NCBI RefSeq assembly: GCF_000010525.1
Contig: NC_009937.1
Coordinates: forward strand, 4,469,501-4,533,500
DNA length: 64,000 nt
Source of the DNA: Azorhizobium caulinodans ORS 571
GTDB taxonomy: Bacteria; Pseudomonadota; Alphaproteobacteria; Rhizobiales; Xanthobacteraceae
Direction: 5' to 3'
Under the pieces are notes generated by a model, which was given only the letters and a program-made list of their open reading frames with translations, did not search any database and had not been told where the DNA came from. How positions within the stretch are numbered: the first letter of the stretch is position 1; each line of letters starts with the position of its first letter. Positions 1,708 to 63,941 of the stretch are shown one piece after another. A program made the position numbers and the translations under genes.

Positions 1708-3246
1708 TCAGGTGCGGCGGCGGCCGGCCAGGCCCAGCACGAAGCCCTTGCCCAGAAATGCCGCAACGGCAAGGAGATAGGCGAGGCCGCCGGCCAGAAC
1801 GACGGCGAGAAAGATCACTTCGTCGCGAGAGCCGGCCAAGCCTTCGGTGAGGCGGCCCATGCCCCACACACCCACCTCAAGCACCACGGCGAGCACGACG
1901 CCGCACAGCAAAAGCCGGACGAGATGGCCGAACAGGCGCTCGTCGCCGATGGGAAAGCCCCGCCGGCGGGCGAACCAGATCAGCAGCCCCACATTGATCC
2001 AGCCGCCGATGGCGGTGGCGAGGGCGAGGCCCACCTGCGCCAGCGGCCCCATGAGGGCGAACTTCAGCGCCACATTGAGGCCCACCGCCGTCAGCGAGGC
2101 GCGCATGGGGGTGGCCGTATCGCCGCGCGCATTGAAGGGCGAGACGAAGGCCCGCACCACCAGGAAGGCGATGAGGCCGACGCCATAGGCCTGCAGGGTC
2201 GCGGCCGCCTCTATCGCATCCCCGCGGGTAAAGGCGCCGCGCGCGAACAGGGCGCGCATGGTCAGATCGGGAATGAGAAGCGCCGCCACCACGAAGGGCA
2301 GGCCCAGCAGCACGGCGAGTTCCACGCAGCGGGCCTGCGCCCGCGCTGCCCCCTCCTCGTCACCGGCAGCAAGGCGGCGGGCCATCTCCGGCAGCAGCAC
2401 GGTACCGATGGCGATGGCCACGACGCCGATGGGCAACTGGTTGATGCGGTCAGCGTAATAGAGCGCCGACAGCGCGCCCGCCGGCAGGAAGGTGGCGATG
2501 ATCGTGTCCGCGAACAAGGCGATCTGCACGCCGGCCGAGCCGATGATGGCCGGGCCAAGGGCCTTGAGGAACTGCCGCGTGCCGGGATCGAGCCGGGGCG
2601 TTCCGAATCTCAGGCCGATGCCGCTGCGCTCCGCATCCCAGCCCACCAGCAGCATCTGGAGCACGCCGGAGACGAGCACGCCCCAGGCCGCCGCGTGTCC
2701 CACCGTCGGGAACAGCGCGCCGCCCAGCAGCGTGCCGATCATGCAGACATTGAGGAGAATGGGGGAGGCCGCCGCCATGGCGAAGCGCCCGGAGGCATTC
2801 AGGGCGCCGGAGATCAGCGTCGCCACCGAGATCAGCGCCAGATAGGGAAAGGTGATGCGCGTCAGCGTCACCGCCAGATCGAAGCGCTGCGGGTCCTCCG
2901 CGAGGCCCGGCGCCAGCAGGCCGACGAACTGCGGCGTGAAGCCCAGCACCAGCACCAGCAGCACGCCATGGACCATCGCCATGGCGGTCAGCACCTCATC
3001 GGCAAAGCCCCGGGCGGCGGGAATGCCGTCCTGTTCCTTCAGCTTGGCATACGTGGGCACGAAGGCGGCGTTGAAGGCGCCCTCGGCGAAGATGGCCCGG
3101 AAGTGATTCGGCAGCCGGAAGGCGACGAGAAAGGCATCCGCCACCGGCCCCGCGCCCAGCACCGCCGCCATCACCACGTCGCGGATGAAGCCCGCGAGGC
3201 GCGAGAGCAGCGTGAAGCCTCCGACCGAGAGGATGTTGCGGAACAT
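1708..3246 (-). CDS. murJ: Lipid II flippase MurJ (MviN)
   Basis: MurJ moves the peptidoglycan precursor lipid II across the inner membrane. The 512-residue product has the usual family length, about 14 hydrophobic helices, and the diagnostic N-terminal stretch SRLAGFIRDVVMAAVLGAG followed by LPNHFRAIFAEGAF. Arginines in those stretches match the positively charged cavity residues known to be essential in E. coli MurJ. The start agrees with homologues (MFRNILSVGG). The gene lies between the RND operon and coaBC on the same strand, with ~100 bp separating it from coaBC. Confidence 0.96.
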   Translation of the reverse strand: MFRNILSVGGFTLLSRLAGFIRDVVMAAVLGAGPVADAFLVAFRLPNHFRAIFAEGAFNAAFVPTYAKLKEQDGIPAARGFADEVLTAMAMVHGVLLVLVLGFTPQFVGLLAPGLAEDPQRFDLAVTLTRITFPYLALISVATLISGALNASGRFAMAAASPILLNVCMIGTLLGGALFPTVGHAAAWGVLVSGVLQMLLVGWDAERSGIGLRFGTPRLDPGTRQFLKALGPAIIGSAGVQIALFADTIIATFLPAGALSALYYADRINQLPIGVVAIAIGTVLLPEMARRLAAGDEEGAARAQARCVELAVLLGLPFVVAALLIPDLTMRALFARGAFTRGDAIEAAATLQAYGVGLIAFLVVRAFVSPFNARGDTATPMRASLTAVGLNVALKFALMGPLAQVGLALATAIGGWINVGLLIWFARRRGFPIGDERLFGHLVRLLLCGVVLAVVLEVGVWGMGRLTEGLAGSRDEVIFLAVVLAGGLAYLLAVAAFLGKGFVLGLAGRRRT

Positions 3247-3347
3247 GCGGGGGTCCTTGAAGGCGGCAGGCGCTGCGGCCGGCGGGCATCATCCCACCGG
3301 GAGGTTTCGGTGACCCTAAAGACACGTGAGGCGCAAATGCGGCACCG

Positions 3348-4550
3348 TCAGGCCAGCGCCCCGGCGATGCGGGCGACGAGGCGGCGGGCCACCTCCGCCT
3401 TGCTGGCGGAGGGCCAGTCCTCCACGCCCTCGCCGGTGACGAGATGCACCGTATTGGCATCCCCGCCCATGATGCCGGTGGCGGGCGAGACGTCATTGGC
3501 GACGATCCAGTCGCAGCCCTTGCGCAGGCGCTTGTCGCGGGCGTTCGGCACCACATTCTCCGTCTCGGCGGCAAAGCCCACCACGAGACGGGGCCGCAGG
3601 GTGGAATGGTGCGAGATGGTGGCAAGGATGTCCGGATTCTCGGTGAGCTGGAGATCGGGCGTGCCTTGCGGCCCCTTCTTGATCTTCTGGTCCGCCTCGC
3701 CGGCCACACGCCAGTCGGCCACCGCCGCGGCGAAGACGGCGGCATCCACCGGCAGATGCTCCTCCACCGCCGCCAGCATCTCCCGCGCCCGCTCCACATG
3801 GATGACGGTGACGCCGCGGGGATCGGGCACCTGCACCGGGCCGGAGACCAGCACCACCTCCGCCCCGGCCGCCGCCGCCGCCGCCGCGATGGCGTGGCCC
3901 TGCTTGCCGGAAGACCGGTTGGCGATATAGCGCACCGGATCGATGGGCTCGACCGTCGGCCCGGAGGTGACCAGGAGCCGCCGTCCCTTGAGCAGTTGCG
4001 GGTGGGTTTCGAAGCGCGCCTCGATGGCGGCGAGGATTTCCAGCGGCTCGGCCATCCGGCCCTCGCCGAACTCGCCCCGCTCGGCCATGGCGCCGGCATT
4101 GGGGCCGACGATGGCGGCGCCGTCTTCCTTCAGCAGCGCCAGATTGCGCCGGGTGGCCGGATGGCTCCACATGCGCGGGTTCATGGCCGGGGCGAACAGC
4201 ACCGGCTTGTCGGTGGCGAGCAGCGCGGTGGAAGCGAGATCATCCGCAAGGCCGTTGGCCGCCTTGGCCATGAGATCGGCGGTGGCGGGGGCAACCACCA
4301 CGAGATCGGCCTCCCGCGAGAGGCGGATATGGCCGATGTCGTGCTCGGCCGTGAGGTCGAACAGGTCCGTGAACACCCGCTCGCCGGTCAGTGCGCCGAC
4401 CGAAAGGGGCGTCACGAAATGCTGGGCGGCCGAGGTCATGATGGCGCGCACGCTGGCGCCGCGCTCCTTCAGGCGGCGGATCAGATCGAGGCACTTATAG
4501 GCGGCGATCCCGCCGCCGATGATCAGAAGGATGCGGCGATCGTGCAGCAT
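3348..4550 (-). CDS. coaBC: Bifunctional phosphopantothenoylcysteine decarboxylase / phosphopantothenate-cysteine ligase
   Basis: This enzyme carries out two consecutive steps of coenzyme A synthesis. The N-terminal CoaC flavoprotein half (about residues 1-190) shows GGGIAAYKCLDLIRRL, the catalytic-type His in GHIRL (residue 74, equivalent to E. coli His75) and PAMNPRMW. The C-terminal CoaB half shows DPVRYIANRSSGKQGHAIA and the KIKK segment. Length (400) is normal. The loop that in E. coli carries catalytic Cys158 (ACGD...GRM) reads AERGEFGEGRM here, with no Cys; see findings. Confidence 0.96.
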   Translation of the reverse strand: MLHDRRILLIIGGGIAAYKCLDLIRRLKERGASVRAIMTSAAQHFVTPLSVGALTGERVFTDLFDLTAEHDIGHIRLSREADLVVVAPATADLMAKAANGLADDLASTALLATDKPVLFAPAMNPRMWSHPATRRNLALLKEDGAAIVGPNAGAMAERGEFGEGRMAEPLEILAAIEARFETHPQLLKGRRLLVTSGPTVEPIDPVRYIANRSSGKQGHAIAAAAAAAGAEVVLVSGPVQVPDPRGVTVIHVERAREMLAAVEEHLPVDAAVFAAAVADWRVAGEADQKIKKGPQGTPDLQLTENPDILATISHHSTLRPRLVVGFAAETENVVPNARDKRLRKGCDWIVANDVSPATGIMGGDANTVHLVTGEGVEDWPSASKAEVARRLVARIAGALA

Positions 4551-4660
4551 GGCGGTCTCCCTCGCGGCGCCGGCCCGATGCGCACATCGGGCACAGGCAG
4601 TCCTCTACCGGAATTCGCGTTCAGGCGCACCCGGCGGCAAAGGGCTGGATCGCGCCGGGT

Positions 4661-5581
4661 TCAGAGGCGGGCGACGGCCACGCGGTTTCGCCCTTCCCCT
4701 TTGGCGCGGTAGAGCAAGGCATCCGCCGTCGCCAACAGGCCGTGGGAGGTCTGCGCCATGGGGCGTTCGCAGCACACGGCGCCGATGCTGGCCGTCACGT
4801 GACCACCGTCGGCCTTGGCATGGGGAATGCCCAGCCCCGCGATACCGGACCGCAGCCGCTCCGCCACGCTCGCCGCACCGGCAAGGTCGAGCCCGGGCAG
4901 GACGCAGGCGAACTCCTCGCCACCGAAGCGGGCGGCAAGGTCGCTCTCGCCCCGCATCAGCGACGCGATGACCGCCGCCACCTGCCGCAGGCAGTCGTCG
5001 CCGCTCAGGTGGCCGTAATGGTCGTTGAAGGCCTTGAAGTGATCGATGTCGATCAGGATCACGGACAGCGGCTTGCCCGAACGCGCATGCTGGGCCACGA
5101 GGCTCGCGAGCGCTTCGTCGAAGCGCCGGCGGTTGCTGATGCCGGTGAGCCCGTCCGTGATGCTGAGCTGGTAGATGCGCTCGTTCAGCGCCCGGCGCTC
5201 GGCCTCGTTGCGCCGGCGCTCGGTGATGTCGCGCACGATGGAACAGTTGAACAGCCGCCCGTCCACGGAAACCAGATTGGCCGTGACCTCGACGGGAACA
5301 TCGACGCCGTCCTTGGTCGTGTTCACCGTCTCCAGCGTGACGGAGCCGAGCCGTTCCAGTTCCGCCCAGTGCTCCCGCCAGCGGGCCTCGTCGAACAGGG
5401 GGTCCACGTCGCAGACCCGGCGCCCCTGGAACTCCTCCTCCGTATAGCCGAGGAGCCGCTGCGCCGCCTTGTTGACGCACACATAGCGGCCCTCGCGGTC
5501 GGCCCAGACGATCATGTCGGCGATGGCGTCTATAGAATAGAGCGCCAGTTTTGCGATCAGATCGGGCGGGGACGCGATCAT
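4661..5581 (-). CDS. PAS-GGDEF diguanylate cyclase
   Basis: The protein is predicted to make cyclic di-GMP. Residues ~10-125 form a PAS domain (MIVWADREGRYVCVNKAAQR, LLGYTEEEFQGR), followed by a PAC-like segment and a GGDEF domain with signature RFGGEEF and upstream SITDGLTGISNRRRFDE. No transmembrane helix is visible, so it is probably cytosolic. An allosteric I-site would need RxxD just before the signature. The sequence RGESDLAARFGGEEF has Arg one position too far away, so product inhibition through a canonical I-site is unlikely. The ligand of the PAS domain is unknown. Confidence 0.92.
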   Translation of the reverse strand: MIASPPDLIAKLALYSIDAIADMIVWADREGRYVCVNKAAQRLLGYTEEEFQGRRVCDVDPLFDEARWREHWAELERLGSVTLETVNTTKDGVDVPVEVTANLVSVDGRLFNCSIVRDITERRRNEAERRALNERIYQLSITDGLTGISNRRRFDEALASLVAQHARSGKPLSVILIDIDHFKAFNDHYGHLSGDDCLRQVAAVIASLMRGESDLAARFGGEEFACVLPGLDLAGAASVAERLRSGIAGLGIPHAKADGGHVTASIGAVCCERPMAQTSHGLLATADALLYRAKGEGRNRVAVARL

Positions 5582-6062
5582 GGCTCACTCATGAAGCAAC
5601 AGGGACGCGCCCGGCAACGTTGATGAGCGCCTGAAAACCAGTATTTTCGCCGGACCTGCTTGCGGGCTGCCCGGAATACCGTGACAGCCGATGCGCCGAA
5701 CTTCCGACATCTGAGGAGGAGGTAGCGAAAAGCCATAAGCCCCGCAATCGGGACAAGTACCAAGATGGCTTGAAACCGAGCGCCGCCCGCGTCGCAGGCC
5801 CGCGCGGCATTGTGGCGCGCCAACGCATGCGCACATCGGCGGATCGTCCCATCCTGGTGCGATCTGCGACGGCCCCTTCCCGCTCTGCCCTTTCAACCGG
5901 CCTCCATACTGGCGACGCGGGTGCCACGGCGAACTCAGGGTGCGAAGACCGCCGGACGAAATTTCAGGTAGAAGGATGCAGCATCGGAAGCTTCAGCGGT
6001 CGCGCGATTCGCGGGGCGCGCGAGGCCGCCCCTGCCGCCGAGATCCATCCGGAGCCCTGATC
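5582..6062. other. Non-coding stretch between divergent genes
   Basis: This 481-bp region separates the minus-strand GGDEF gene from the plus-strand deaminase and presumably holds both promoters. Short open frames cross it, but none has a convincing ribosome site, start and protein-like composition together. A GAGGAGGAGG run near 5718 resembles a ribosome site but no start codon follows at a suitable distance. I see no RNA gene or clear repeat. Confidence 0.5.
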
Positions 6063-7637
6063 GTGCGCCGCCGCATCGCGATTGCCGCCTTCGTCCTCAT
6101 CGCCGCCGCCCTCGTGGTGCGGCTTGCCTTCGTGACCCGCGACCTGCCGGCCACCCTCACCGCCGGACAGTTCGAGACGCTGCGCGCCGAGCTTCCCCGC
6201 ATGCGCGCCTTCCTCGCCCGCATGCCCAAGGGCGGCGACCTCCACACCCACCTGTCGGGCGCCGTCTATGCGGAGCGCTTCATCGGCGTTGCGGTGCGCG
6301 ACGGCCTGTGCCTGCGCCGCGCCGACTGGACGCTGCTGCCCCGCCCCGCCGGTGCGCCTGCCGATCACCCGTGCGGCACCGACCCCGCCCTCGTGCCGCT
6401 CGCCGAAGCGGTGGCGGGCGGCCGGGGCCAGACCACCTACGACCTGCTGGTGAATGCCCTTTCCACCCGCTGGTTCGTGCCCACGCTCGCCGTCCCTTCC
6501 GGCCACGACCAGTTCTTCGGCACTTTCGGCAAGTTCAATGCCGCCACCGGCGGCCCGGAATGGGACAGCACCGCCCGCGCCACCGCAGAGATGGTGGTGG
6601 ACCAGTTGCGCCAGTATGAGGCCGAGCAGGTCCAGTATGCGGAATTCATGGTCACGCTCTTCGAGGGTGAGGACCGCCGCCGGCTGGCGCAGGCGCTGCT
6701 GGCGAGCCCGGCGGCCGCCGGCGGCATCGACGGCCAGAGCGATCCCGTCCCTCTGCTGGAGGCGGTGAAGGGCGCCGGCCTTGCCGATCTCGTTTCGGCG
6801 CGCGCGGCCCAGCTCAAGGATCTCGTGGCCCGCATCGAAGCCCTGCGCGGCTGCGCGGGCGACCGGGGCAAGCCGGGCTGCACCGTCGCCTACCGCTTCA
6901 TCGCGCAGGTGAACCGCAACGCGCCGCCGGCCGAGGTCTTCGTCCAGACCGCCCATGCCGCGGCCCTTGTCCGGGCGGCACCCGGCATCGTGGCGGGCCT
7001 CAATTATGTGGGGCCGGAGGACTACCGCATTTCCCTTCGCGACTACCGCATGCACATGCGCTGGATCGGCGCCCTCGCCGGGCATGACGTGCCGGTGGCG
7101 CTCCATGCGGGCGAACTGTGGCTCGGCCTGGTGCCGCCGCCGGACCTCACCTTCCACATCCGCGAGGCGGTGGAGGTGGCCGGCGCCCGCCGCATCGGCC
7201 ACGGCACCGCCATCGCCTTCGAGCGCGACATGGACGGCCTCCTCGCCCAGATGCGCCGCAAGGATGTGGCGGTGGAGATCGCCCTCACCTCTTCCGACGT
7301 GATCCTCGGCGTGCGAGGCCCCGAGCATCCCATCCGCACCTATCTCTCCGCCGGCGTGCCGGTGGTGCTCTCAACCGACGATGCCGGCGTCTCGCGCATC
7401 GACCTCACGAACGAATATTTCCGCGCCGCCCGCGATCAGGGGCTCGGCTATGGGCAGCTGAAGGCCATGGCCCGGGCCGCCATAACCCATGCCTTCCTGC
7501 CGCTGGACGAGCGCCAGTGGCAGCTCGGCCGCCTCGACAGCGCGTTCCTCGCCTTCGAACGCAAGGTGGCGAGCGACCTGCCGCTCCCGACCAAGGCCCG
7601 GCTGGTGGCGCGGGCGATGCTGCCGGCGGGGTGGTGA
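6063..7637 (+). CDS. Membrane-anchored or exported adenosine-deaminase-like amidohydrolase
   Basis: This belongs to the adenosine/AMP deaminase superfamily of zinc hydrolases. The metal-binding His pair is in GGDLHTHLSGAVY (about residues 60-62). The catalytic HAGE is in VALHAGEL (~347), a further His is in RIGHGTA (~380), and the metal/base Asp pair is in LSTDDAGV (~438). I chose the GTG at 6063, behind GGAG, because it gives an N-terminal signal/anchor helix (RRRIAIAAFVLIAAALVVRL) and drops an unlikely Arg-rich leader; length is then 524 residues. The anchor and the ~170 extra residues relative to cytosolic adenosine deaminase suggest a periplasmic enzyme like the ADGF/CECR1 branch. The real substrate is not proven. 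Confidence 0.85.
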   Translation: MRRRIAIAAFVLIAAALVVRLAFVTRDLPATLTAGQFETLRAELPRMRAFLARMPKGGDLHTHLSGAVYAERFIGVAVRDGLCLRRADWTLLPRPAGAPADHPCGTDPALVPLAEAVAGGRGQTTYDLLVNALSTRWFVPTLAVPSGHDQFFGTFGKFNAATGGPEWDSTARATAEMVVDQLRQYEAEQVQYAEFMVTLFEGEDRRRLAQALLASPAAAGGIDGQSDPVPLLEAVKGAGLADLVSARAAQLKDLVARIEALRGCAGDRGKPGCTVAYRFIAQVNRNAPPAEVFVQTAHAAALVRAAPGIVAGLNYVGPEDYRISLRDYRMHMRWIGALAGHDVPVALHAGELWLGLVPPPDLTFHIREAVEVAGARRIGHGTAIAFERDMDGLLAQMRRKDVAVEIALTSSDVILGVRGPEHPIRTYLSAGVPVVLSTDDAGVSRIDLTNEYFRAARDQGLGYGQLKAMARAAITHAFLPLDERQWQLGRLDSAFLAFERKVASDLPLPTKARLVARAMLPAGW

Positions 7638-7669
7638 GGGACGGCGACGGCCTTCCACCGGATGTGCCA

Positions 7670-7702
7670 ATTGCGCAATGTAAGGACTTTCCTTACATTG
7701 CG
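7670..7702. promoter_or_regulatory. Palindromic operator of the toxin-antitoxin operon
   Basis: A perfect 13-bp inverted repeat (CGCAATGTAAGGA, 3-bp spacer, TCCTTACATTGCG) ends 16 bp before the antitoxin ATG. It overlaps a second, self-complementary 10-mer (ATTGCGCAAT) at its left edge, so the half-site ATTGCG occurs three times. Position and symmetry fit autoregulation by the AbrB-type antitoxin. This function is inferred, not shown. Confidence 0.7.
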
Positions 7703-7718
7703 TGAGCGAGGAGCAGCC

Positions 7719-7937
7719 ATGATCACCTCCCGGCTCACCACCAAGGCGCAGACCACCATTCCGCAGCCCGTACGCAACGCCTTGCAGCTCAAGGAAGGCG
7801 ATGAGATCGCCTATGCCATCGAAGGCGACCATGTGGTGATCCGCAAGGCGAAACCCACCCTGCCCACCGATGATCCCTTCGCCACTTTCTCCGAGTGGGA
7901 CGGAGAGGCGGATCGCAAGGCCTATGGCGGCCTTTGA
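7719..7937 (+). CDS. AbrB/MazE-type antitoxin
   Basis: This 72-residue protein starts with the swapped-hairpin AbrB DNA-binding fold: SRLTTKAQTTIPQPVRNALQ followed by LKEGDEIAYAIEGDHVVIRKA. The C-terminal tail (PFATFSEWDGEADRKAY) would be the toxin-binding arm. The ATG follows a GAGGAGC ribosome site. The gene overlaps the toxin gene by 14 bp, the usual antitoxin-first arrangement of type II modules, and sits directly behind a perfect palindrome. Confidence 0.9.
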   Translation: MITSRLTTKAQTTIPQPVRNALQLKEGDEIAYAIEGDHVVIRKAKPTLPTDDPFATFSEWDGEADRKAYGGL

Positions 7938-8262
7938 TCAGGGGGACATCGTCCGCGTCCCATTCCCCTACACGGACGGCAATACGCGCCAGCATCGGCC
8001 GGCGCTCGTGGTTAGCCGGGGCCCGGTGGCGGGTGGTCACCTGTTGTGGGTGCTCATGATCACCAGCGCGGAGAACAGGCCTTGGCCCGGCGATGTTCCA
8101 TTAGGCGATGCCTATGGGGCCTGCGGTCTGCCCGCACCATCCGTCGTCCGGACGGCCAAGATCGCAACCATCGAAGCGGCGAAGGCAGACCGGATCGGGC
8201 ACCTGCCGCCAGAGCTTCTGGCACAGACGCGACTGCGTATAGCGGAAACATTGTCCCCATAA
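7924..8262 (+). CDS. PemK/MazF-family endoribonuclease toxin
   Basis: The product (112 residues) has the PemK/MazF landmarks: GDIVRVPFPYTD at the N-terminus, RPALVVS, and LPAPSVVRTAKIATIEA leading to RIGHLP. Family members cut mRNA at short sequence motifs and are neutralised by the upstream antitoxin. The ATG lies inside the last codons of the antitoxin gene, so translation is coupled. The cleavage motif cannot be predicted from sequence alone. Confidence 0.9.
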   Translation: MAAFDQGDIVRVPFPYTDGNTRQHRPALVVSRGPVAGGHLLWVLMITSAENRPWPGDVPLGDAYGACGLPAPSVVRTAKIATIEAAKADRIGHLPPELLAQTRLRIAETLSP

Positions 8263-8301
8263 CGCTTTTGCGCTTTCCCAGAGACCCGGAAATGCTCCGG
8301 C

Positions 8302-9291
8302 TCACCATGCCGCGTAAGGCGCCTCCAGCGGCGCGAAGCGCGCATCACTGAAGTCATGGAGGCGCAGGAATGCGTCTTCGCCCTTATCCGCATAATCGCG
8401 GAAGCGGCTCTTGCGCAACCGGTGGAGGCAGCCGGCGCGGGCGAACACGAGATCGCCGCCGTCCCAGTCCGCCCAGTCAGTCTCGGGCAGATCGACCAGC
8501 ACCGTGCCGTCGCGATCCACCACGCGGTAATCGAGGCCGTAGAAGGGCTTCCCGGCGCGGCCAACGACCCGCAGCAGCATCTGGAGACGCCGCCCGCCGG
8601 GGCCATCCTTCTCCCGCACCTGCGGCTTGCTGAACTTATAAATTTCCGGGGCCTTCAGGCCGCGCGCCTCGCCCTCTCCCCGCTCCACCAGACGCCAGCC
8701 GGCCCGCTCCAGCAGCAGGGTGTTGAGAGGCTCGTCCTCCCCGCGCCCGGACCACTGACCGCACGGCTTCACCTGCATTCCGGGCTTGAGCCGAAAGCCT
8801 TCGGCCAGCGGGAAACGGGGGGCGTCCCCGTCGGGGAGATAGTTGAGGAGCACTGTCTCCTCATCGTCGAGCATGCCGCCCCCGCCCCAGGCGTCCCCCT
8901 TGGGCCAGAGGGCGAGCGCGGTGAAGAAGGGCGGCTTTGAAAGGGCCGTCCAGGTGTAAAAGGGCGCCCGATGGGTCGCTGCGAAATAGAGCAGCAGTTT
9001 GCCGGACGGCGAGAGGTCGCAGCGCCGCTCATAGATGCGGCCCTTGAACCATTGCCCATGCTCGAACGTGTCGTCGCGCAGATCCCAGCGGATGAGCTGC
9101 ACCTGCCGGCTCGGCCCGCGGCGGAAGACGACGCCGGTTCGCGCATCCCGCGCGAGGATGGCATAGAGCCGCGTGGCGGGGCGCTTGCCTTTCGCGGCGG
9201 GCGGGACGGCTGGACTGGTCAAGACAGTTTCCCTTCGAAGCTTGGCCGGTTGACGTCTCCGACAACGGCCGAGCTCCCTTTTGGGATCCAT
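8302..9291 (-). CDS. Conserved protein of unknown function
   Basis: I do not recognise this family. The product (329 residues from the ATG; ~306 if the TTG at 9222, which follows AGGGAA, is the true start) is soluble, rich in Trp, Arg and Gly, and has no signal peptide or membrane helix. Phrases such as GKLLLYFAATHRAPFYTWTA, GLDYRVVDRDGTVLVDLPET and GDLVFARAGCLHRLR look like a repeating beta-sheet protein, perhaps a propeller, but this is a guess. It stands alone on the minus strand, between the toxin-antitoxin pair and ubiB. Confidence 0.75.
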   Translation of the reverse strand: MDPKRELGRCRRRQPAKLRRETVLTSPAVPPAAKGKRPATRLYAILARDARTGVVFRRGPSRQVQLIRWDLRDDTFEHGQWFKGRIYERRCDLSPSGKLLLYFAATHRAPFYTWTALSKPPFFTALALWPKGDAWGGGGMLDDEETVLLNYLPDGDAPRFPLAEGFRLKPGMQVKPCGQWSGRGEDEPLNTLLLERAGWRLVERGEGEARGLKAPEIYKFSKPQVREKDGPGGRRLQMLLRVVGRAGKPFYGLDYRVVDRDGTVLVDLPETDWADWDGGDLVFARAGCLHRLRKSRFRDYADKGEDAFLRLHDFSDARFAPLEAPYAAW

Positions 9292-9310
9292 CAGACCAGC
9301 AGCCGAGCCC

Positions 9311-10879
9311 TCATTTCAGCGCCAGCAGCAGCAGCGCGATGGCGATCACCCAGAGGGCCGCATTGCCCCAGAAGGCGCGGCGGGCTTCGGCGGCGCCGAT
9401 GCCCTCCAGCGTCTCGGGGGAGAGGTGGAGGCCGTTGCGGGTTGCTTCGTCGAGCTGGCTCACCACGCGGCCGGCGCGGGTGAGCAGGACCGGCGCGTCG
9501 AGGACGAAGCGGCCCACCTCGCCGATGCCGGAGCCCGCCTGCTGGAGGCGACCGACAGGGCCGAGGTTCTGGGCGATCCAGTCCTCCACCACCGGGGCGG
9601 CGGTGGTCCACATGTTGAGCTGCGGATCAAGGCCGCGCGCCACGCCCTCCACCACCACCATGGTCTTCTGCAGCAGCAGCAGTTCGGGCCGGGTCTTCAT
9701 GTCGAAGAGGCCGGTCACTTCCAGCAGCAGCGAGAGCAGCCGGGCCATGGAAATCTGGTCGGCGCTGCGGGAATGGATCGGCTCGCCGATGGCGCGGATG
9801 GCGAGGGCAAAGTCCTCCACCGAATGGTGGGAGGGCACATAGCCCGCCTCGAAATGCACTTCCGCCGTGCGCCGCCAGTTGCGGGTGATGAAGCCGTAGA
9901 GGATTTCGGCGAGGAAGCGCCGCTCCTTGAGGCCGAGGCGGCCCATGATGCCGCAGTCCACCACCACGAGACGGCCTTCCGCATCCACGAACAGATTGCC
10001 GGGGTGCATGTCGGCATGGAAGAAGCCGTCGCGCATGGCCTGCCGCAGGAAGGACTGCATGACGATGCGGGCGAGGTTCTGGAGATCGTGCCCCGCCGCC
10101 TCAAGCCCGGCACGGTCGGAGAGCTTGATGCCGTCGATCCACTCGGTGGTCAGCACCTCGCGGGCGGAACGGTCCCAGTCCACTGCCGGCACGTGGACGT
10201 CCGGATCGTCCTTCACATTCTCGGCCAGCTCCGCATAGGCCGCGGCCTCGAGGCGCAGGTCCATCTCCATGGTGACGGATCGGCCGAGCGTATCCACCAC
10301 CGTGGTGAGCCGCAGGCGCCGGGCCTCGGCGGAGATCTTCTCGGCGAAAGCGGCGATGCGACGGAAGGTGGCGACGTCGGCGGAGAAGCGCCGCTCGATG
10401 CCGGGGCGCAGGATCTTCACCGCCACGGTGCGGCGGGTGCCGTCGCGCTCCACCACCACCGCCTTGTGCACCTCGGCGATGGAGGCGGCGGCCACGGGCG
10501 GGCCGAATTCCGCATAGACCTCGGAGAGCGGCCGCTCGAAGGCGTCCACCACCGTCTGCTCCGCCACCGTCTGCCCGAAGGCGGGCATGCGGTCCTGCAG
10601 AACCTCCAGGTCGCGGGCGACGGACGCGCCCACCACGTCCGGCCGGGTGGCGAGGAACTGGCCGAGCTTCACATAGGAGGGGCCGAGGCGGCTCAGCGCG
10701 GCGGAGAGGCGCGCCGCCCGCGTGCCGGCATCGGGGCGGGCGATGAGGCGCGCAAGGCGCAGGCCGGGCCGTGCGAGCGGCGGCACCATGGCCGGGCTCA
10801 CGAGGCTCAGCACGCCCTCGCGGGCAAGCACATAGCCGGCGCGCGCGAGGCGCGCGGCGTCGATGAGAACGAGAATCAC
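9311..10879 (-). CDS. ubiB: UbiB ubiquinone-biosynthesis ABC1/ADCK kinase-like protein
   Basis: UbiB is an atypical protein-kinase-like ATPase needed for ubiquinone synthesis at the inner membrane. The sequence shows the family-specific KxGQ motif (SYVKLGQFLATRPD), the Ala-rich nucleotide loop (AAASIAEVHKA), the lysine of VAVKILRPG, the catalytic DGFFHADMHPGNLF and the metal Asp in VVVDCG. A hydrophobic C-terminal helix (ALWVIAIALLLLAL) anchors it. The GTG start behind AAAGGGA gives 522 residues; an upstream ATG would overlap ubiE. It follows ubiE by 34 bp in one operon. Confidence 0.95.
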   Translation of the reverse strand: MILVLIDAARLARAGYVLAREGVLSLVSPAMVPPLARPGLRLARLIARPDAGTRAARLSAALSRLGPSYVKLGQFLATRPDVVGASVARDLEVLQDRMPAFGQTVAEQTVVDAFERPLSEVYAEFGPPVAAASIAEVHKAVVVERDGTRRTVAVKILRPGIERRFSADVATFRRIAAFAEKISAEARRLRLTTVVDTLGRSVTMEMDLRLEAAAYAELAENVKDDPDVHVPAVDWDRSAREVLTTEWIDGIKLSDRAGLEAAGHDLQNLARIVMQSFLRQAMRDGFFHADMHPGNLFVDAEGRLVVVDCGIMGRLGLKERRFLAEILYGFITRNWRRTAEVHFEAGYVPSHHSVEDFALAIRAIGEPIHSRSADQISMARLLSLLLEVTGLFDMKTRPELLLLQKTMVVVEGVARGLDPQLNMWTTAAPVVEDWIAQNLGPVGRLQQAGSGIGEVGRFVLDAPVLLTRAGRVVSQLDEATRNGLHLSPETLEGIGAAEARRAFWGNAALWVIAIALLLLALK

Positions 10880-57757: not shown

Positions 57758-58393
57758 TCAGAACTTGTAGTTGACGCCGAGCCGCGCCGTTGACGCGGCG
57801 ACCCCGGCCTCGCCGAGCGCCTTGTAATCGGCCTTGCCGAGATCGGTGTAGAGATACTCGGCGCGGGCGGTCCAATTGTTGGTGAGGGCGTATTCCACGC
57901 CGCCGCCCACCGTCCAGCCCGTGAGGGTCTGGGACTGGCTCGTGCCGAAGTCGGTGATCTTGTTGTTGCCCCAGGCAAAGCCGCCGGTGACATAGGGCAG
58001 CACGCGGTCCACCGCATACCCCAGACGGGCGCGGACGGTGCCGAAGGATTCGAGCTTGCTGGACACCGGGCCGTTGCCGGCGCTGATGCCGCCGCCCTGC
58101 ACGTCCGCCTCGAGGCCCACCAGCATGTTGTTCTGGAACTGGTAGTTGTAGCCGACCTGACCGCCGCCGAACCATCCGTCGGGATCGAGGCCGAGCGCAT
58201 CCGCGCTGCCCTTGCCCGAGCCCCACGCATAGCCGGTGTTGGCGCCGATATAGAATCCCGTCCAGGAGAAGACCGGCGGCGCACTCACGGCGCTCGCCGG
58301 CATCGCGGGGGCCGGCCGGGACAGATCGGCCGCCATGGCGGGCGCAGCGAACAGCAGGCTCGCCAGCGCTCCCGTGACCAGAACCGATTTCAT
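57758..58393 (-). CDS. Omp25/31-like outer-membrane beta-barrel protein (paralogue 1)
   Basis: A ~211-residue small porin-like protein. A Sec signal (LASLLFAAPAMA) is cut before ADLSRPAP. The mature part has the family hallmarks FSWTGFYIGANTGYAWGSG, QVGYNYQFQNNMLVGLEADV, GTVRARLGYAVDRVLPYVTG and a C-terminal aromatic end (LGVNYKF) recognised by the BAM machinery. A GTG directly before the ATG is an alternative start; AAGGG precedes both. It is the last of three tandem paralogues, each with its own regulatory region. Confidence 0.92.
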   Translation of the reverse strand: MKSVLVTGALASLLFAAPAMAADLSRPAPAMPASAVSAPPVFSWTGFYIGANTGYAWGSGKGSADALGLDPDGWFGGGQVGYNYQFQNNMLVGLEADVQGGGISAGNGPVSSKLESFGTVRARLGYAVDRVLPYVTGGFAWGNNKITDFGTSQSQTLTGWTVGGGVEYALTNNWTARAEYLYTDLGKADYKALGEAGVAASTARLGVNYKF

Positions 58394-58559
58394 CACGCTC
58401 TACCCTTCACTTGAAAACCCATTTCCCTTCGTATCGCCCGCGAGACGGGCGAGGGCATGGCACGGTGTGGGCAAAGCGATGGCAGGGGGCAGATGGCCGA
58501 ATAGCGGCAGCGCGGACGTGGCGGTGCCTTAGATAGCGGACCCGAGAGGTAAGGCGCGC

Positions 58560-58728: not shown

Positions 58729-59427
58729 TCAGAACTTGTAGTTCACGCGAGCGCGCAGGACGCTCATGTTGAACGAGGTGTCCAGCGAGGTCAGGTTCGG
58801 GAACAGGTAGTTGTTGCCACCCAGATCCACGTACAGGTACTCGAGGCCAGCCGTGATGTTGTTGGTGACGGCGTACTCGAAGCCCGCGCCGATGGTCCAG
58901 CCCCAGTTCGTGGAGGAGGTGCCGACACCGTAGATGTTGCCGTAGTCGACATGGCCCCAAGCCGCACCACCGGTGATGTAGGGCAGGAACTTGTCGAAGG
59001 CGTAGCCGAGACGGGCGCGGACGGTGCCGAAGTAGTCGAGCGAGCCGTTGATCGTCTGGCCGGCGAGCGGGCCGTTCACGGCGACGCCGGAGCTGCCGAT
59101 GCCGGTCCAGTCGATGTCAGCTTCGATGCCGACCACGACGTTGTTGGCGAACTGGTAGTTGTAGCCGATCTGGCCACCGCCCAGCCAGTCGTCCTGACCG
59201 CCGACGGAGTAGCTGTAGGGCAGGCCCGTGCGGGTGTTGCCGTGGAAGTCCGTGGAGCCCCAGGCGTAACCGACGTTGGCGCCGATGTAGAAGCCGGTCC
59301 AGGAGAACACGGGCACGACCGGCGCAATGGCCTTGACGGGGTACTTGGTGGCGAGGTCAGCCGCAGAGGCGGCGCCGCAGCCGAGGAGAGCCAGGGCCGA
59401 CACCCCGGCGAGAGCGCGCTTCAACAT
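58729..59427 (-). CDS. Omp25/31-like outer-membrane beta-barrel protein (paralogue 2)
   Basis: The 232-residue product has a signal peptide (LAGVSALALLGCGAASA, cut before ADLATKYP), then FSWTGFYIGANVGYAWGSTD, QIGYNYQFANNVVVGIEADI, GTVRARLGYAFDKFLPYITG and a C-terminal RARVNYKF. The Cys in the signal peptide is not in a good lipobox. The ATG follows AAGGTG; its own strong terminator suggests high expression. It is closely similar to paralogues 1 and 3. Confidence 0.94.
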   Translation of the reverse strand: MLKRALAGVSALALLGCGAASAADLATKYPVKAIAPVVPVFSWTGFYIGANVGYAWGSTDFHGNTRTGLPYSYSVGGQDDWLGGGQIGYNYQFANNVVVGIEADIDWTGIGSSGVAVNGPLAGQTINGSLDYFGTVRARLGYAFDKFLPYITGGAAWGHVDYGNIYGVGTSSTNWGWTIGAGFEYAVTNNITAGLEYLYVDLGGNNYLFPNLTSLDTSFNMSVLRARVNYKF

Positions 59428-59638
59428 GGGAACACCTTTTGTGTTTTTCGACGAAGAACCAGTGAGGCGGACCATACATCGGGTTCGCCGCCCCGTCTGT
59501 CACCCTAGCGCAACACCTCCTTTTGAAAGCACGGCAAAATTGCGGCAGGGGTTCCAGATCGCGACACAATTGCAGCCGACGCCACGAAAAAAGCCTTCTG
59601 TTTTCAAGATTTCCGCGGCGTCGACTGACGTTAAGAGA

Positions 59639-60247
59639 CTAGAAACGATAGTTCACACCTGCGCGAAGAACGCTTGTGTCATAGCTCACGTTGGTGGGGC
59701 CGACCCAGGTGCCATAGGTCGAGTTGCCTAGATCGACGTACATATATTCTGCACGCGCGCTCCAATTGCGGTCGATTGCATATTCCGCACCGGCACCCAG
59801 AGCCCAGCCGTAGGAGGTCTGGCTGTTGCTGAGACCGAACACCTGGTAGGAGCCCTTGCCATAGGCGAAGCCGGCGGTGCCGTAGATGAGGACGCGGTCG
59901 AAGGCGAAGCCCGCGCGGGCCCGCACCGTGCCGATATAGTCTTGGCTGTAATTGCCGTCGTTCATGCCGGCCCAGTCGAAGTCGGTCTCGAGACCGAGCA
60001 CGATGGGCGATCCGGCCATCTGAAGATTGTAGCCGGCCTGCAGGCCGCCCAGGAATCCCTTCGGGGAATCGGCGCCCGCCGAGCCCCAGCCGTAGCCGAT
60101 GTTTCCGCCGACGTAGAATCCGGTCCAGGAGGCAGGCGCGGCCGCCGCCGGTGCATAGCCATAGCTGTTGCCGTAGCTGAGATCGGCTGCCGCCACGGGG
60201 CTCGCCGCCAGCGTCGCGGCCAAGGCCGCGATGATGCGGGTCTTCAT
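59639..60247 (-). CDS. Omp25/31-like outer-membrane beta-barrel protein (paralogue 3)
   Basis: The 202-residue product has a signal peptide (AALAATLAASPVAA, cut before ADLSYGNS), a Tyr/Gly/Ala linker, ASWTGFYVGGNIGYGWGS, LQAGYNLQMAGSPIVLGLET and a C-terminal LRAGVNYRF. The ATG follows a perfect GGAGAG site. The downstream end and the 211-bp gap to paralogue 2 are richer in A+T than the surroundings. No clear terminator is visible after the stop. Confidence 0.93.
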   Translation of the reverse strand: MKTRIIAALAATLAASPVAAADLSYGNSYGYAPAAAAPASWTGFYVGGNIGYGWGSAGADSPKGFLGGLQAGYNLQMAGSPIVLGLETDFDWAGMNDGNYSQDYIGTVRARAGFAFDRVLIYGTAGFAYGKGSYQVFGLSNSQTSYGWALGAGAEYAIDRNWSARAEYMYVDLGNSTYGTWVGPTNVSYDTSVLRAGVNYRF

Positions 60248-60364: not shown

Positions 60365-61786
60365 TTAAGCGGCCGCGCCGCCGTTGCCTGCCAGCGAGTC
60401 GGCGAGCGCGGCGGTGCGCGCCTCGACGATCATGTCCACCCTCTGGGCCAGCGCCGGGTGGCGCTCCAGCAGGCGCTCCATGGCGGTCACCGGCACTTCC
60501 AGCAGATGAACCTCGCTCTCCGCGAGAACCTCCACGGACGAGGGCGTGCCGCGGAAGGCATCACGGGTGGCATAGAGCGCGCCATCCGCGAGGCGCTCCA
60601 CCACCCCGCCGGCCGGCAGGCTCACCCGCGCCGCGCCGGACAGCAGCACCAGGAAATAGGGGGCCGCCTCCCCCGCCCGCAGGATGATCTCGCCCGCCGC
60701 ATAGAGGCGCAGGCGCGCGTCCACCGCCACGACACGCAGGTCGTCGCTCACCGCACCGAAAGCGCCGGTGCCGGCGAGCGCCGCAAGACGGGTCTGCGGG
60801 GTGTCGGTGCCATAAAGCTCTTCCGCGCTCACGCCCTCGGCCACGGAGACGCCGTGGCGCTGGCCGACGTACCAGAGCCGGTGCAGGAAGGCGTCGCGCG
60901 CCTTCACCACCTGGCTGGCATCGGCCACCGGGAAGGACACGCCATAGACGATGGCCGTGCCGCCCAGTTGCTTGACGCGGCAGGCAACGGCATTGGCGTC
61001 GAGCAATTGCGGCACGTCCCGTGCCGCCTCCAGCAGGAGGGCCTTGGCTTCCGCCGGCGCGGTGCCGGGCGGCAGGGACACGTCGGTTGCGACCGACACC
61101 GACTGCCGGGCGCGGGTGATGCGAAGCGAAGCGCTGGACATGTTGGCGCTCGGCACCACGATGCGCTCCCCGGAGAGGGTCTCCACCGTGATGGCCCGCC
61201 AGTCGATCTGCACCACCTTGGCCGGCGTGCCGTCGATCTGCAGCCAATCGCCGAGATTGAAGTGGCGGCCGGAGAAGACGATCACGCCCGCCACGAGCCC
61301 GCCGATGACGTTCTGAAGCGCGAGGCCCAGCACCACCGAGCCGATGCCGAGCGCCCCGAGCAGGCTGCCGAGGTCCACGTCCCAGATGGTGGACACGATG
61401 ATGGCCGCGCCGATGGCCACCACCGCGGACGAGCCGAGCTCATAGAACAGGCGCGGTGCCGGCAGGCGCCCCACGGTCTCGCTGAAGGCGATGATGAGGC
61501 TCTGGAGGATGGTGAAGACGGCGTGCAGCAGCAGGATGCCCACCGCCGTGTCCACGATCTTCACCGTCAGGCCCTCGGGCGGCAAGTGCAGCAGTTCGTG
61601 GACGATGATCCAGACGGCGCCTGCCGGCACCACGATCATCTGCAGTGCCTTGATCGGCCGGCGCGCCGCCGAGTCCGGCCCGGCGAAACGCCGCGTCAGC
61701 TCGATGAGAAGAACCGTGAGGAGCGGAAAGCCGAGGACGATCAGGATCGTCCACGGCACCTCTTGGGCGATCTGCGCGCTGAGCAT
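60365..61786 (-). CDS. MscS-type channel with a degenerate cyclic-nucleotide-binding domain
   Basis: The 473-residue protein has about four membrane helices. The MscS pore helix and beta domain follow (DLGSLLGALGIGSVVLGLAL, QNVIGGLVAGVIVFSGRHFN, GDWLQIDGTPAKVVQIDWRA, VVPSANMSSASLRITR). A C-terminal cNMP-binding fold (about residues 330-460) shows YFLVLLSGAARVSLPAGGVV. The phosphate-binding cassette, normally FGE...PRxA, reads YATRDAFRGTPSSVEV here, without the Glu and Arg that hold the nucleotide. The ATG follows GAGG, 7 bp after the cyclase-like gene's stop. Confidence 0.9.
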   Translation of the reverse strand: MLSAQIAQEVPWTILIVLGFPLLTVLLIELTRRFAGPDSAARRPIKALQMIVVPAGAVWIIVHELLHLPPEGLTVKIVDTAVGILLLHAVFTILQSLIIAFSETVGRLPAPRLFYELGSSAVVAIGAAIIVSTIWDVDLGSLLGALGIGSVVLGLALQNVIGGLVAGVIVFSGRHFNLGDWLQIDGTPAKVVQIDWRAITVETLSGERIVVPSANMSSASLRITRARQSVSVATDVSLPPGTAPAEAKALLLEAARDVPQLLDANAVACRVKQLGGTAIVYGVSFPVADASQVVKARDAFLHRLWYVGQRHGVSVAEGVSAEELYGTDTPQTRLAALAGTGAFGAVSDDLRVVAVDARLRLYAAGEIILRAGEAAPYFLVLLSGAARVSLPAGGVVERLADGALYATRDAFRGTPSSVEVLAESEVHLLEVPVTAMERLLERHPALAQRVDMIVEARTAALADSLAGNGGAAA

Positions 61787-61793
61787 CGCCGCC

Positions 61794-63941
61794 TCACCGG
61801 CTCTCGGCGGCGGGCGCAGGCGCGGCCGGGCGCTGCCACGTGGCGACCGGCGTGTCATCGAACAGCGTGATCTCCGCCTTGGGCTCGAAGCCCTCGCGCA
61901 CGCTCAACTGCTGGAAGACCGCCTCCGTCACCCGCACGGTGCCCGGCTCGGCGTCGAAGACGATGCGCCGGGCTTCCAGCATGGTGGCGCCCCACACGTC
62001 GTAAAGCATGCGGTGGCGGCCGACGATGCCCACCTCCACGTCGCCGAGCGCGACGCCGGCGCGGACCGAGAGTTCGACCTCATAGACCCGCGACAGGCGG
62101 TCGAGCGCACCGCTCACCTGCTCCACGAAGGCAAGGCCCCGCTGGGCGGCGTCGAGGCGCGGCGTCGAGAGGCCGCAGGCGGCCATATAGGTTTCGCCGA
62201 TGGTGCGGATCTTCTCCAGCCCGCCGGCGGTGCACAGCTCGTCCAGATCGCCCACCACGGCATTGACGCGCTCCAGCGTCTCGCCGCTGCCGCCCCGCAC
62301 CAGCCCCTCGAAACCCTCGATGATGAGGACCACCACGCAGACGTTGCGCACATGCTCGGAGAAGGCGCCCTCGCCATTGCGGATGCGGTCGGCGATGAGG
62401 TCGGGATAGAAATTGCGCAGCAGTTGCTCGTACTCGACCGTCTTCTGCTCGATGCGGGCGGAGCGCTCGGCGATCTCGTTGGCCATGGCGTTGAAGGCGC
62501 GGGCGAGGTCGGCGAATTCATCGCGCCCCTTCACCGGAATGCGCACGCTCTCGTCGCCCGCCGCCAGCGTGTTGACGCCGGCGAGCACCGCCTGGATGGG
62601 GCGGGTGAATACGCTGGCGAGCGCCACCGAGATGGCGGTGAGGATGACCGCCGCCAGCGCCGCCACCACCAGGATGGAGTGGCGCAGGCCGTCCACTGGC
62701 GCCAGCGCCTCCGCCTCGTCCTGCTGGGCGACCACGATCCAGTGCAGGCCCTGCACCGCCACCGGCCCCCAGGAGCTCAGGGTGGAGACGCCCCGGTAAT
62801 CGGCCACGATCTGGGTGTCGGAGCGTCCCTTCTGGCCCTCGCGCGTCGCCTCCGTGCTGACCTTCTGGGCCATGATGGGCGAGTCGAAATGCCTGATGCG
62901 CGCGAGCGTCTCCGAACTCACGCCGGTGGCCTCCAGCGCCTTGAAATAGGCCGCCGGGTCCTGGATCAGGAAGCGCGAGGGCGAGCGCATCAGCAGCTCG
63001 TTGACGCCGACGAGATAGACCTCGCCCGTGCGTCCCAGCCCGGCCTCTTCCCAATGCCGGTCGTTGGTCATGAGCGCGTTGATCTGCTTGACCGACAGCA
63101 CGCCGATGACAACGCCCACGAGATTGCCGTCCGAAAAGACCGGCGCCGCGATGAAGGCGGAGGGGCGCAGGCCCGCGGGAATATAAGCGGAGAAGTCCTC
63201 CAGCACCGTATGGCCGGGCACCCCGCCGCCCTCGATCACGCGGCTGAAGGCGCGGGCGGCGCCGGAGGTGGAGAGGGACCCGCTCTTCAGGCTGGCGCCG
63301 AGATCGGTCCGCTTGGCCACCGTATAGACGATGGTGCCGCTCCGGGTGTCCACCAGCAGGATGTCTTCCAGCGCGTGAGTTTCCACGGCCCGGCGGAAGA
63401 AGGGCTGGAAGCGCGCCACCGCATCGTCATAGGCGGCAAGGCCGGAGTCCGCCGGCTGGCCGGTATCCTCCCGCGACACGCCCTCCGTGCCCACCGGATT
63501 GGCGTTGCGCGTCACATAGGCGGCCTGAAGCCGCAGGGCGGCCGGGCTCGCCGGCAGAAAGCCGCGCGGCACCAGCGGCGCATCCACGAGCATGGCGAAC
63601 GAGGGCAGGAACTTGTCCTTGTAATAGGCATCGAGCTCCGGCGTGGGCGTCGCGGACGCGCCGACGCCGGCCCGCAGGTAGGCGGCCGAGAAGGCCTGTA
63701 TGCCGGCAATGGTCGAGGCATCCTGCGAGATGTCGCTAAAGTCGTCCGAGACGTCCTGGAACCAGTTGACCACCTGCGCCGCCTTGGCGGTGCGCAGGGT
63801 GGTGAGCTGGTCGAAGATGCTGGACTTCAGCGTCGTGGTTCCGCTGCGCATGGCGACAAGGCTCGCCGCCACCAGACAGCCGATGCCGCAGATGAGCAGC
63901 ATGGCCAGAACCTTGGAGCGGATGGACAGGAAACCGAACAT
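61794..63941 (-). CDS. dCache-HAMP protein with a degenerate class III cyclase domain
   Basis: The 715-residue membrane sensor has an N-terminal helix (VLAMLLICGIGCLVAASLVA) and a periplasmic ligand-binding dCache-type region (~35-420). A second helix (SILVVAALAAVILTAISVAL) leads to a HAMP domain, a short coiled coil (ARIEQKTVEYEQLLRNFYPD) and a class III cyclase fold (~530-700). The catalytic residues differ from active enzymes: VVVLIIEGFEGL replaces the Asp-containing F-x-D-I-x-GF, IRTIGETYMA has Glu for the second metal Asp, and VWGATMLEARR lacks the Asp and Asn of WGDTVN. It is first in an operon with the MscS-type channel. Confidence 0.9.
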   Translation of the reverse strand: MFGFLSIRSKVLAMLLICGIGCLVAASLVAMRSGTTTLKSSIFDQLTTLRTAKAAQVVNWFQDVSDDFSDISQDASTIAGIQAFSAAYLRAGVGASATPTPELDAYYKDKFLPSFAMLVDAPLVPRGFLPASPAALRLQAAYVTRNANPVGTEGVSREDTGQPADSGLAAYDDAVARFQPFFRRAVETHALEDILLVDTRSGTIVYTVAKRTDLGASLKSGSLSTSGAARAFSRVIEGGGVPGHTVLEDFSAYIPAGLRPSAFIAAPVFSDGNLVGVVIGVLSVKQINALMTNDRHWEEAGLGRTGEVYLVGVNELLMRSPSRFLIQDPAAYFKALEATGVSSETLARIRHFDSPIMAQKVSTEATREGQKGRSDTQIVADYRGVSTLSSWGPVAVQGLHWIVVAQQDEAEALAPVDGLRHSILVVAALAAVILTAISVALASVFTRPIQAVLAGVNTLAAGDESVRIPVKGRDEFADLARAFNAMANEIAERSARIEQKTVEYEQLLRNFYPDLIADRIRNGEGAFSEHVRNVCVVVLIIEGFEGLVRGGSGETLERVNAVVGDLDELCTAGGLEKIRTIGETYMAACGLSTPRLDAAQRGLAFVEQVSGALDRLSRVYEVELSVRAGVALGDVEVGIVGRHRMLYDVWGATMLEARRIVFDAEPGTVRVTEAVFQQLSVREGFEPKAEITLFDDTPVATWQRPAAPAPAAESR

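Follow-up and report, generated by a model that had tools for sequence, protein, structure and literature searches.

The two genes described here are encoded in a 64,000-nucleotide stretch of the Azorhizobium caulinodans ORS 571 genome (the window; NC_009937.1, positions 4,469,501 to 4,533,500), a genome held in a single contig of 5,369,772 bases. The first gene (61794..63941, minus strand) encodes a 715-aa dCache-HAMP receptor whose output domain is class III cyclase-like (a pseudo-cyclase with neither metal-binding Asp), and the second (60365..61786, minus strand, ATG at 61786) a 473-aa MscS-type channel with a C-terminal fold of the type binding cyclic nucleoside monophosphates (cNMP). Both open reading frames (ORFs) were found where the original prediction had placed them, on the minus strand, with 7 bp between the stop codon of the receptor and the channel ATG. 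The receptor matched the Pfam families Guanylate_cyc (PF00211, E 2.5e-24), HAMP (1.2e-13) and dCache_1 (9e-5, under the curated cut-off of that family), its cyclase-fold domain covering about residues 515-700 (61842..62399, minus strand). The channel matched cNMP_binding (9.7e-13; residues 360-443, 60458..60709, minus strand) and MS_channel_2nd (1.9e-10). The architectures of the two proteins are known ones, those of receptor cyclases and of MscS channels with a cyclic-nucleotide-binding domain (CNBD). In all eight distinct pairs of the two genes, both metal Asp of the output domain and the cassette Gly-Glu and Arg of the CNBD were gone.

Scanning 249 genomes of the order with the whole protein, the receptor was matched in 13 and the channel in 13 at the thresholds used, and the two were adjacent in six, window genome included. 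A further scan, which took a single genome for each species, added A. doebereinerae and A. oxalatiphilum, giving the eight distinct pairs; its pattern contained the G-E of IGE and therefore favours members with Glu at that place, while the order-wide scan, free of this pattern, recovered 5/7 of the other pairs. In a class-wide scan of 385 genomes, only the window's own pair was found at E 1e-50. The closest receptors outside the window genome were those of A. doebereinerae and A. oxalatiphilum, and four other pair-bearing genomes were alphaproteobacterial metagenome-assembled genomes (MAGs) with 'Dive100' names. Outside Azorhizobium, identity to the window proteins was 29-36% for receptors (whole protein or C-terminal domain) and 25-28% for channels. 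The genes overlapped by four bases in three MAGs and were separated by 100 bases in the fourth (L036), compared with 7, 7 and 10 bp in Azorhizobium. The pair was present in 3/5 genomes of the family of one pair-bearing genome (G156); the families of two others (G039 and G008) had one genome each.

A periplasmic binding protein gene was found directly upstream of the receptor in several loci (PBP_like_2 in L034, 3721-4854, and L036, 3608-4744; NMT1_3 in G039, L006, 3-1286), and its product may supply the dCache domain with its ligand. In two loci (L034, 2184-3527; L035, 2224-3516), a further ion channel with its own CNBD was encoded upstream of both the binding-protein gene and the receptor gene, with an Ion_trans match in L034; the cassettes of these channels kept FGE but not the Arg. 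The receptor gene of G059 was split into two overlapping frames (L038, 4869-5909 and 5906-7258), through an assembly error or as a broken gene.

Active-site residues of the paired domains

In alignments to solved adenylyl cyclases, the first metal Asp corresponded to the Ile of LIIEGF in the window cyclase domain and the second to the Glu of IGET, in agreement with the original prediction, which had read the loss of the first Asp from IIEGFE and the Glu from IGET. The base-specifying Lys (EKIR), the base-specifying Asp (YDVWG) and the transition-state Arg were kept, while the transition-state Asn was replaced by Leu. The prediction had also taken WGATML for a loss of Asp and Asn from WGDTVN; the Asp of WGDT is indeed absent and the Asn lost, but that Asp is not catalytic and the base-specifying Asp is retained in YDVWG. 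Apart from this non-catalytic Asp, misplaced catalytic motifs were ruled out by the same alignments. Residue roles were assigned from family knowledge and from the available excerpt of PMC4215837.

The same positions were altered throughout the linked pairs. The first metal Asp was gone in 8/8 (Ile in five, Val, Leu and Ser in one each) and the second was Glu in 8/8, while the base-specifying Lys, the YDxW Asp and the Arg were each present in 8/8 and the Asn in 4/8. A further Lys position, which we take to be phosphate-binding, was without Lys in 5/8 pairs, Azorhizobium included. All six active-site residues were intact in 29/29 comparator cyclases from the order, which were the best-scoring loci of each scan (up to 30 per scan) rather than a random sample; the count excludes L112 and L122, which repeat the window protein (L122 in truncated form). 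The two metal-binding Asp are called indispensable for class III cyclases in the excerpt seen of PMC4886424. The loss of Asn is not decisive alone, since Ma1120 of Mycobacterium avium is active without it, according to the part of PMC4215837 consulted.

The fold itself was retained. The predicted structure of the window domain (pLDDT 79) had 5o5l as its best Foldseek match (1.2e-16), and its TM-score against chains of mammalian C2 halves was about 0.8 by target length. Mammalian adenylyl cyclases headed the list of solved structures in the sequence search because the scores of their two domains add up; by single domain, the bacterial cyclases 5o5k (70.6 bits) and 4p2m (65.9) scored above the C2 (52.5) and C1 (39.6) halves of adenylyl cyclase 9 (AC9), and the C2 halves were dropped as nearest solved relatives. 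Judged from these alignments and models, the window domain has a class III cyclase fold, without the two metal Asp of the enzyme and with the Arg but not the Asn of its Asn and Arg pair.

In the window channel, the Gly-Glu of the phosphate-binding cassette is replaced by Ala-Thr and its Arg by Ser, and alignment bore out both changes that had been proposed (YAT for FGE, PSSV for PRxA). Gly-Glu was lost in 8/8 paired channels and the Arg in 8/8. Among 39 distinct unpaired MscS-CNBD channels, 36 kept Gly-Glu, 24 the Arg and 22 all three residues, and none lacked both Gly and Glu. Ten channel rows that were repeats or truncated at an end, and every CNBD row lacking an MscS part, were left out of this count, and these comparators too were the best-scoring loci of their scans. 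Aligning adjacent homologues thus returned the same altered positions in 8/8 pairs, versus 0/29 comparator cyclases and 0/39 unpaired channels without both Gly and Glu. A paralogous MscS-CNBD channel is encoded elsewhere in the window's own genome (L030, 1156-2679; C1:1880164), and its cassette kept Gly-Glu but not the Arg.

One of the two explanations offered originally, that the domain makes an unusual cyclic nucleotide recognised by the altered CNBD, would suit a catalytic site and a receptor site that are both off-norm in 8/8 pairs, with an invariant Glu at the second metal position. It is nevertheless highly improbable and was left unsupported: the first metal position held Ile, Val, Leu or Ser in 8/8, and the loss of the metal Asp should stop catalysis on any nucleoside triphosphate. 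Moreover, the base-reading pair was of the ordinary adenine type (8/8), and the cassette residues that were lost bind phosphate, independent of the base.

It is also very unlikely that the domain acts as a C2-like half, completed by a separate cyclase bearing the metal Asp so that the heterodimer makes cAMP. Four MAG pairs without metal Asp kept Lys, Asp, Asn and Arg as a C2 half does, and three genomes (G011, G059 and G156) each encoded a second, intact class III cyclase, with one further weak match in G156; G039 had four more PF00211 matches. No second PF00211 protein was found, however, in A. caulinodans, in G008 or in A. doebereinerae and A. oxalatiphilum, the last two being draft genomes. 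Because four genomes have a single PF00211 protein, pairing with a metal-bearing cyclase cannot be the general rule. In Azorhizobium the Asn is lost too, and the channel has no cassette with which to read cAMP.

Unlinked relatives and selection

Full-length relatives of the receptor were found on Rhizobiaceae plasmids: in 19 records, coverage of it was 80% or more and identity 31-33%. In the three unlinked plasmid receptors that were read (Sinorhizobium sp. M14, Pararhizobium sp. A13 and S. meliloti pSymA), the cyclase was intact (3/3), with the motifs FADLVGF, VGDAY and YDLWGDTVNLASR, and no MscS channel was found within 4 kb of them. The same receptor scaffold thus carries a working-looking cyclase when it stands alone.

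Both domains of the pair remained under purifying constraint. Ratios of nonsynonymous to synonymous change (dN/dS) were obtained by simple Nei-Gojobori counting among the three Azorhizobium species and are rough values because of this counting and of the GC-rich genomes. In the receptor they were 0.22-0.35 for the cyclase domain, 0.31-0.42 for the sensor and 0.20-0.31 for HAMP, and in the channel 0.31-0.49 for the N-terminal transmembrane part, 0.19-0.42 for the MscS core and 0.47-0.66 for the CNBD. The divergence of the CNBD relative to MscS had a median of 1.55 in paired channels (1.45-3.53, n=8) and 1.62 in unpaired ones (1.14-3.36, n=97), with MscS cores 55-97% identical in these comparisons and two comparator loci repeated (L129=L026, L130=L027). 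By this measure the paired CNBD seems as constrained as is usual for such channels. The cyclase domain diverged less than its own sensor in 6/6 within-group paired comparisons (0.62-0.91). Decay of the two genes was rejected as an explanation, as both dN/dS and the divergence ratios speak against it.

Alternatively, the two genes may be co-transcribed yet uncoupled, the channel being an ordinary tension-gated MscS with the CNBD as a structural cap and the receptor acting elsewhere. The channel core is MscS-like, its pore and beta domain being fused to the CNBD fold (considered at fold level alone, since the structure prediction was poor, pLDDT 66.6), and the cassette is lost. An MscS-CNBD channel, Ss-bCNGa, is reported to respond to tension, which also counts for uncoupled genes. 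This reading is quite doubtful given that the linkage persists at about 25-36% identity, with the genes overlapping in three MAGs, and that 0/39 unpaired MscS-CNBD channels had an ORF for a class III cyclase in the flanking sequence retrieved (some 1.5 kb, contig permitting).

Possible contact between receptor and channel

Architecture, linkage, the losses in 8/8 pairs and purifying constraint were all observed directly, and from them we infer, at about even chances, a conserved two-gene signalling unit in which the receptor controls the adjoining channel by contact, perhaps with ATP bound, and no cyclic nucleotide is made. Direct contact fits best of the two explanations originally offered. 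The output domain would then be without catalysis and the channel without cNMP binding, and physical contact would lead to gating. In such a unit, the dCache domain would read an extracytoplasmic signal. HAMP and a helical linker would pass this signal on to the cyclase-fold domains, a dimer unable to hold catalytic metals, which would relay it to the MscS channel by touching it, most probably at the ring of CNBD folds. Precedents for such contacts were found in the available parts of two sources: in KCNH channels, the cyclic-nucleotide-binding homology domains (CNBHDs) engage the PAS domains directly (PMC7515569), and the cyclase CyaC of S. meliloti binds the CRP-like CNBD protein Clr in an ATP-dependent manner (PMC10463352). 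More tentatively, and with the balance tilted against it, both halves of a second-messenger pathway may have been kept as folds and emptied of their chemistry, a cyclic-nucleotide relay having turned into a direct contact relay, which would make the pair a ligand-gated channel of bacteria assembled from two distinct membrane proteins.

The retained Lys, Asp and Arg are the first of several points that weigh against contact without any nucleotide, as they suggest that nucleotide binding may still matter. The cyclase-fold dimer could be an adenine-nucleotide sensor, binding ATP or ADP through these residues without cyclising it, so that the nucleotide is an input that sets the channel together with the dCache signal. 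The conservation described above (Lys, YDxW Asp and Arg in 8/8 pairs, Asn in 4/8), the C2 halves of mammalian AC9 and AC5, which likewise aligned with Ser or Ala, and no Asp, at the metal positions, and the ATP requirement of CyaC-Clr binding, as given in the excerpt of PMC10463352, are in line with it. We regard such a sensor as unlikely, since the phosphate-Lys position lacks Lys in most pairs, that of Azorhizobium among them, and degenerate relatives of the receptor lose some of the same residues.

These relatives count against contact signalling as well. One MAG (RI_372, L037) encoded four tandem dCache-HAMP-cyclase-like receptors (334-2427, 2673-4772, 4986-7082 and 7426-9588), all without metal Asp (Glu at the first position; Met, Gly, Ala or Ser at the second), and no MscS channel was found in the 12-kb locus despite the four degenerate receptors. 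To the same side belong the loss of the cassette Arg in 15/39 unpaired channels and several of the selection results. The CNBD had the highest dN/dS among Azorhizobium, nearly equalled by the N-terminal transmembrane part in 2/3 comparisons, and the largest CNBD-to-MscS ratio of all comparisons (3.53) was a paired one; drift of the CNBD was nonetheless dropped as an explanation of the high dN/dS, the unpaired control ratios showing that a high value is usual. Divergence of the cyclase domain relative to the sensor was 0.79-0.91 in Azorhizobium, 0.62-0.80 in the MAGs and 0.56-0.69 in intact relatives, suggesting somewhat looser constraint on the Azorhizobium domain than on an intact one, though not its absence.

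The phylogeny bears on the last of these points, the number of times the joint change occurred. Paired cyclase domains formed one clade (support 93/83 with three catalytic columns excluded; 98/91 with the plasmid receptors added, a tree that drew a long-branch warning from the program), and so did the paired channels (100/99), for which only the 15-row clade of eight pairs and seven repeat copies mislabelled as unpaired was used. The sensor tree, on the contrary side, placed Azorhizobium beside the intact plasmid receptors (91/91), although the sensor data did not reject a single clade of pairs (p-AU 0.13, approximately unbiased test). The cyclase-domain data rejected a grouping of Azorhizobium with the plasmid receptors (p-AU 0.0002, with long branches in play). 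On these trees, the simplest reading is that the pairs probably go back to one ancestral joint change, and the single clade of paired channels is the reason for favouring one origin; domain exchange or two separate changes are less likely alternatives. Being probably a single event, the joint change speaks less for contact than the count of pairs suggests: the 8/8 counts show a joint state that was kept, not repeated emergence. The original claim that the two domains changed together is supported by both changes in 8/8 pairs and by the intact cyclase in 3/3 unlinked receptors read, but without proof of repeated co-evolution; the original interpretation as a whole stands in part.

Known systems and neighbouring genes

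MscS channels with a C-terminal CNBD are known as bacterial cyclic nucleotide-gated (bCNG) channels, reportedly from work by Caldwell et al. in 2010 and Malcolm et al. in 2012. The window channel resembles them in the fusion of MscS pore and beta domain to a cNMP-binding fold, but the paired channels differ (8/8) in lacking the cassette Gly-Glu and Arg and in having a linked receptor gene. On the receptor side, the dCache-HAMP class III receptor cyclase of S. meliloti pSymA (L199) is a full-length match (97% coverage, 31-33% identity) with the same domain order; the three plasmid receptors read differ from the window receptor in their intact cyclase and in having no MscS channel within 4 kb. 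The best single-domain matches, in sequence (5o5k) and in fold (5o5l), were to bacterial class III cyclases of a single domain such as Rv1625c and the 5o5k/5o5l enzyme, from which the window domain departs by the absence of both metal Asp.

The C2 halves of mammalian transmembrane adenylyl cyclases share with the window domain a cyclase fold without metal Asp and with the base-reading residues kept, and AC9 C2 scored higher against it than C1 (52.5 vs 39.6 bits). Neither C1 nor C2 is active alone, as stated in the excerpt seen of PMC9552081; the window receptor, however, has no linked C1 half, and four genomes have no other PF00211 protein. KCNH (EAG/ERG) channels are alike in that their CNBD-like domain, the CNBHD, is contacted by another domain (PMC7515569, available part), but their pore is unrelated and the partner is their own PAS domain, while in the window pair the contact would be with a separate protein. 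In the portions seen, XC_0250/XC_0249 of Xanthomonas (PMC3770947) and CyaC/Clr of S. meliloti (PMC10463352) are also described as combining a class III cyclase with a CNBD effector, through linkage or binding; they differ in having active cyclases, nucleotide-binding effectors and no channel. In searches of the open-licence literature, no title or opening of an abstract among the papers listed described a conserved linkage between a metal-less receptor cyclase and a cassette-less channel.

If contact signalling holds, a pathway based on a diffusible messenger can turn into a contact pathway with both domains kept, and the pair would provide a small two-gene system for testing this change, with intact single-gene relatives as controls. 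Class III cAMP synthesis in A. caulinodans would then be doubtful, since the receptor is the sole PF00211 protein found there, and it would be misleading to annotate such genes as cyclases or as channels gated by cAMP.

Upstream of the receptor in A. caulinodans, the neighbouring ORF is divergent (L002). Downstream of the channel, three tandem ORFs on the minus strand (57758-58396, 58729-59475 and 59639-60247 of the window) appeared by eye to encode related outer-membrane beta-barrel proteins.

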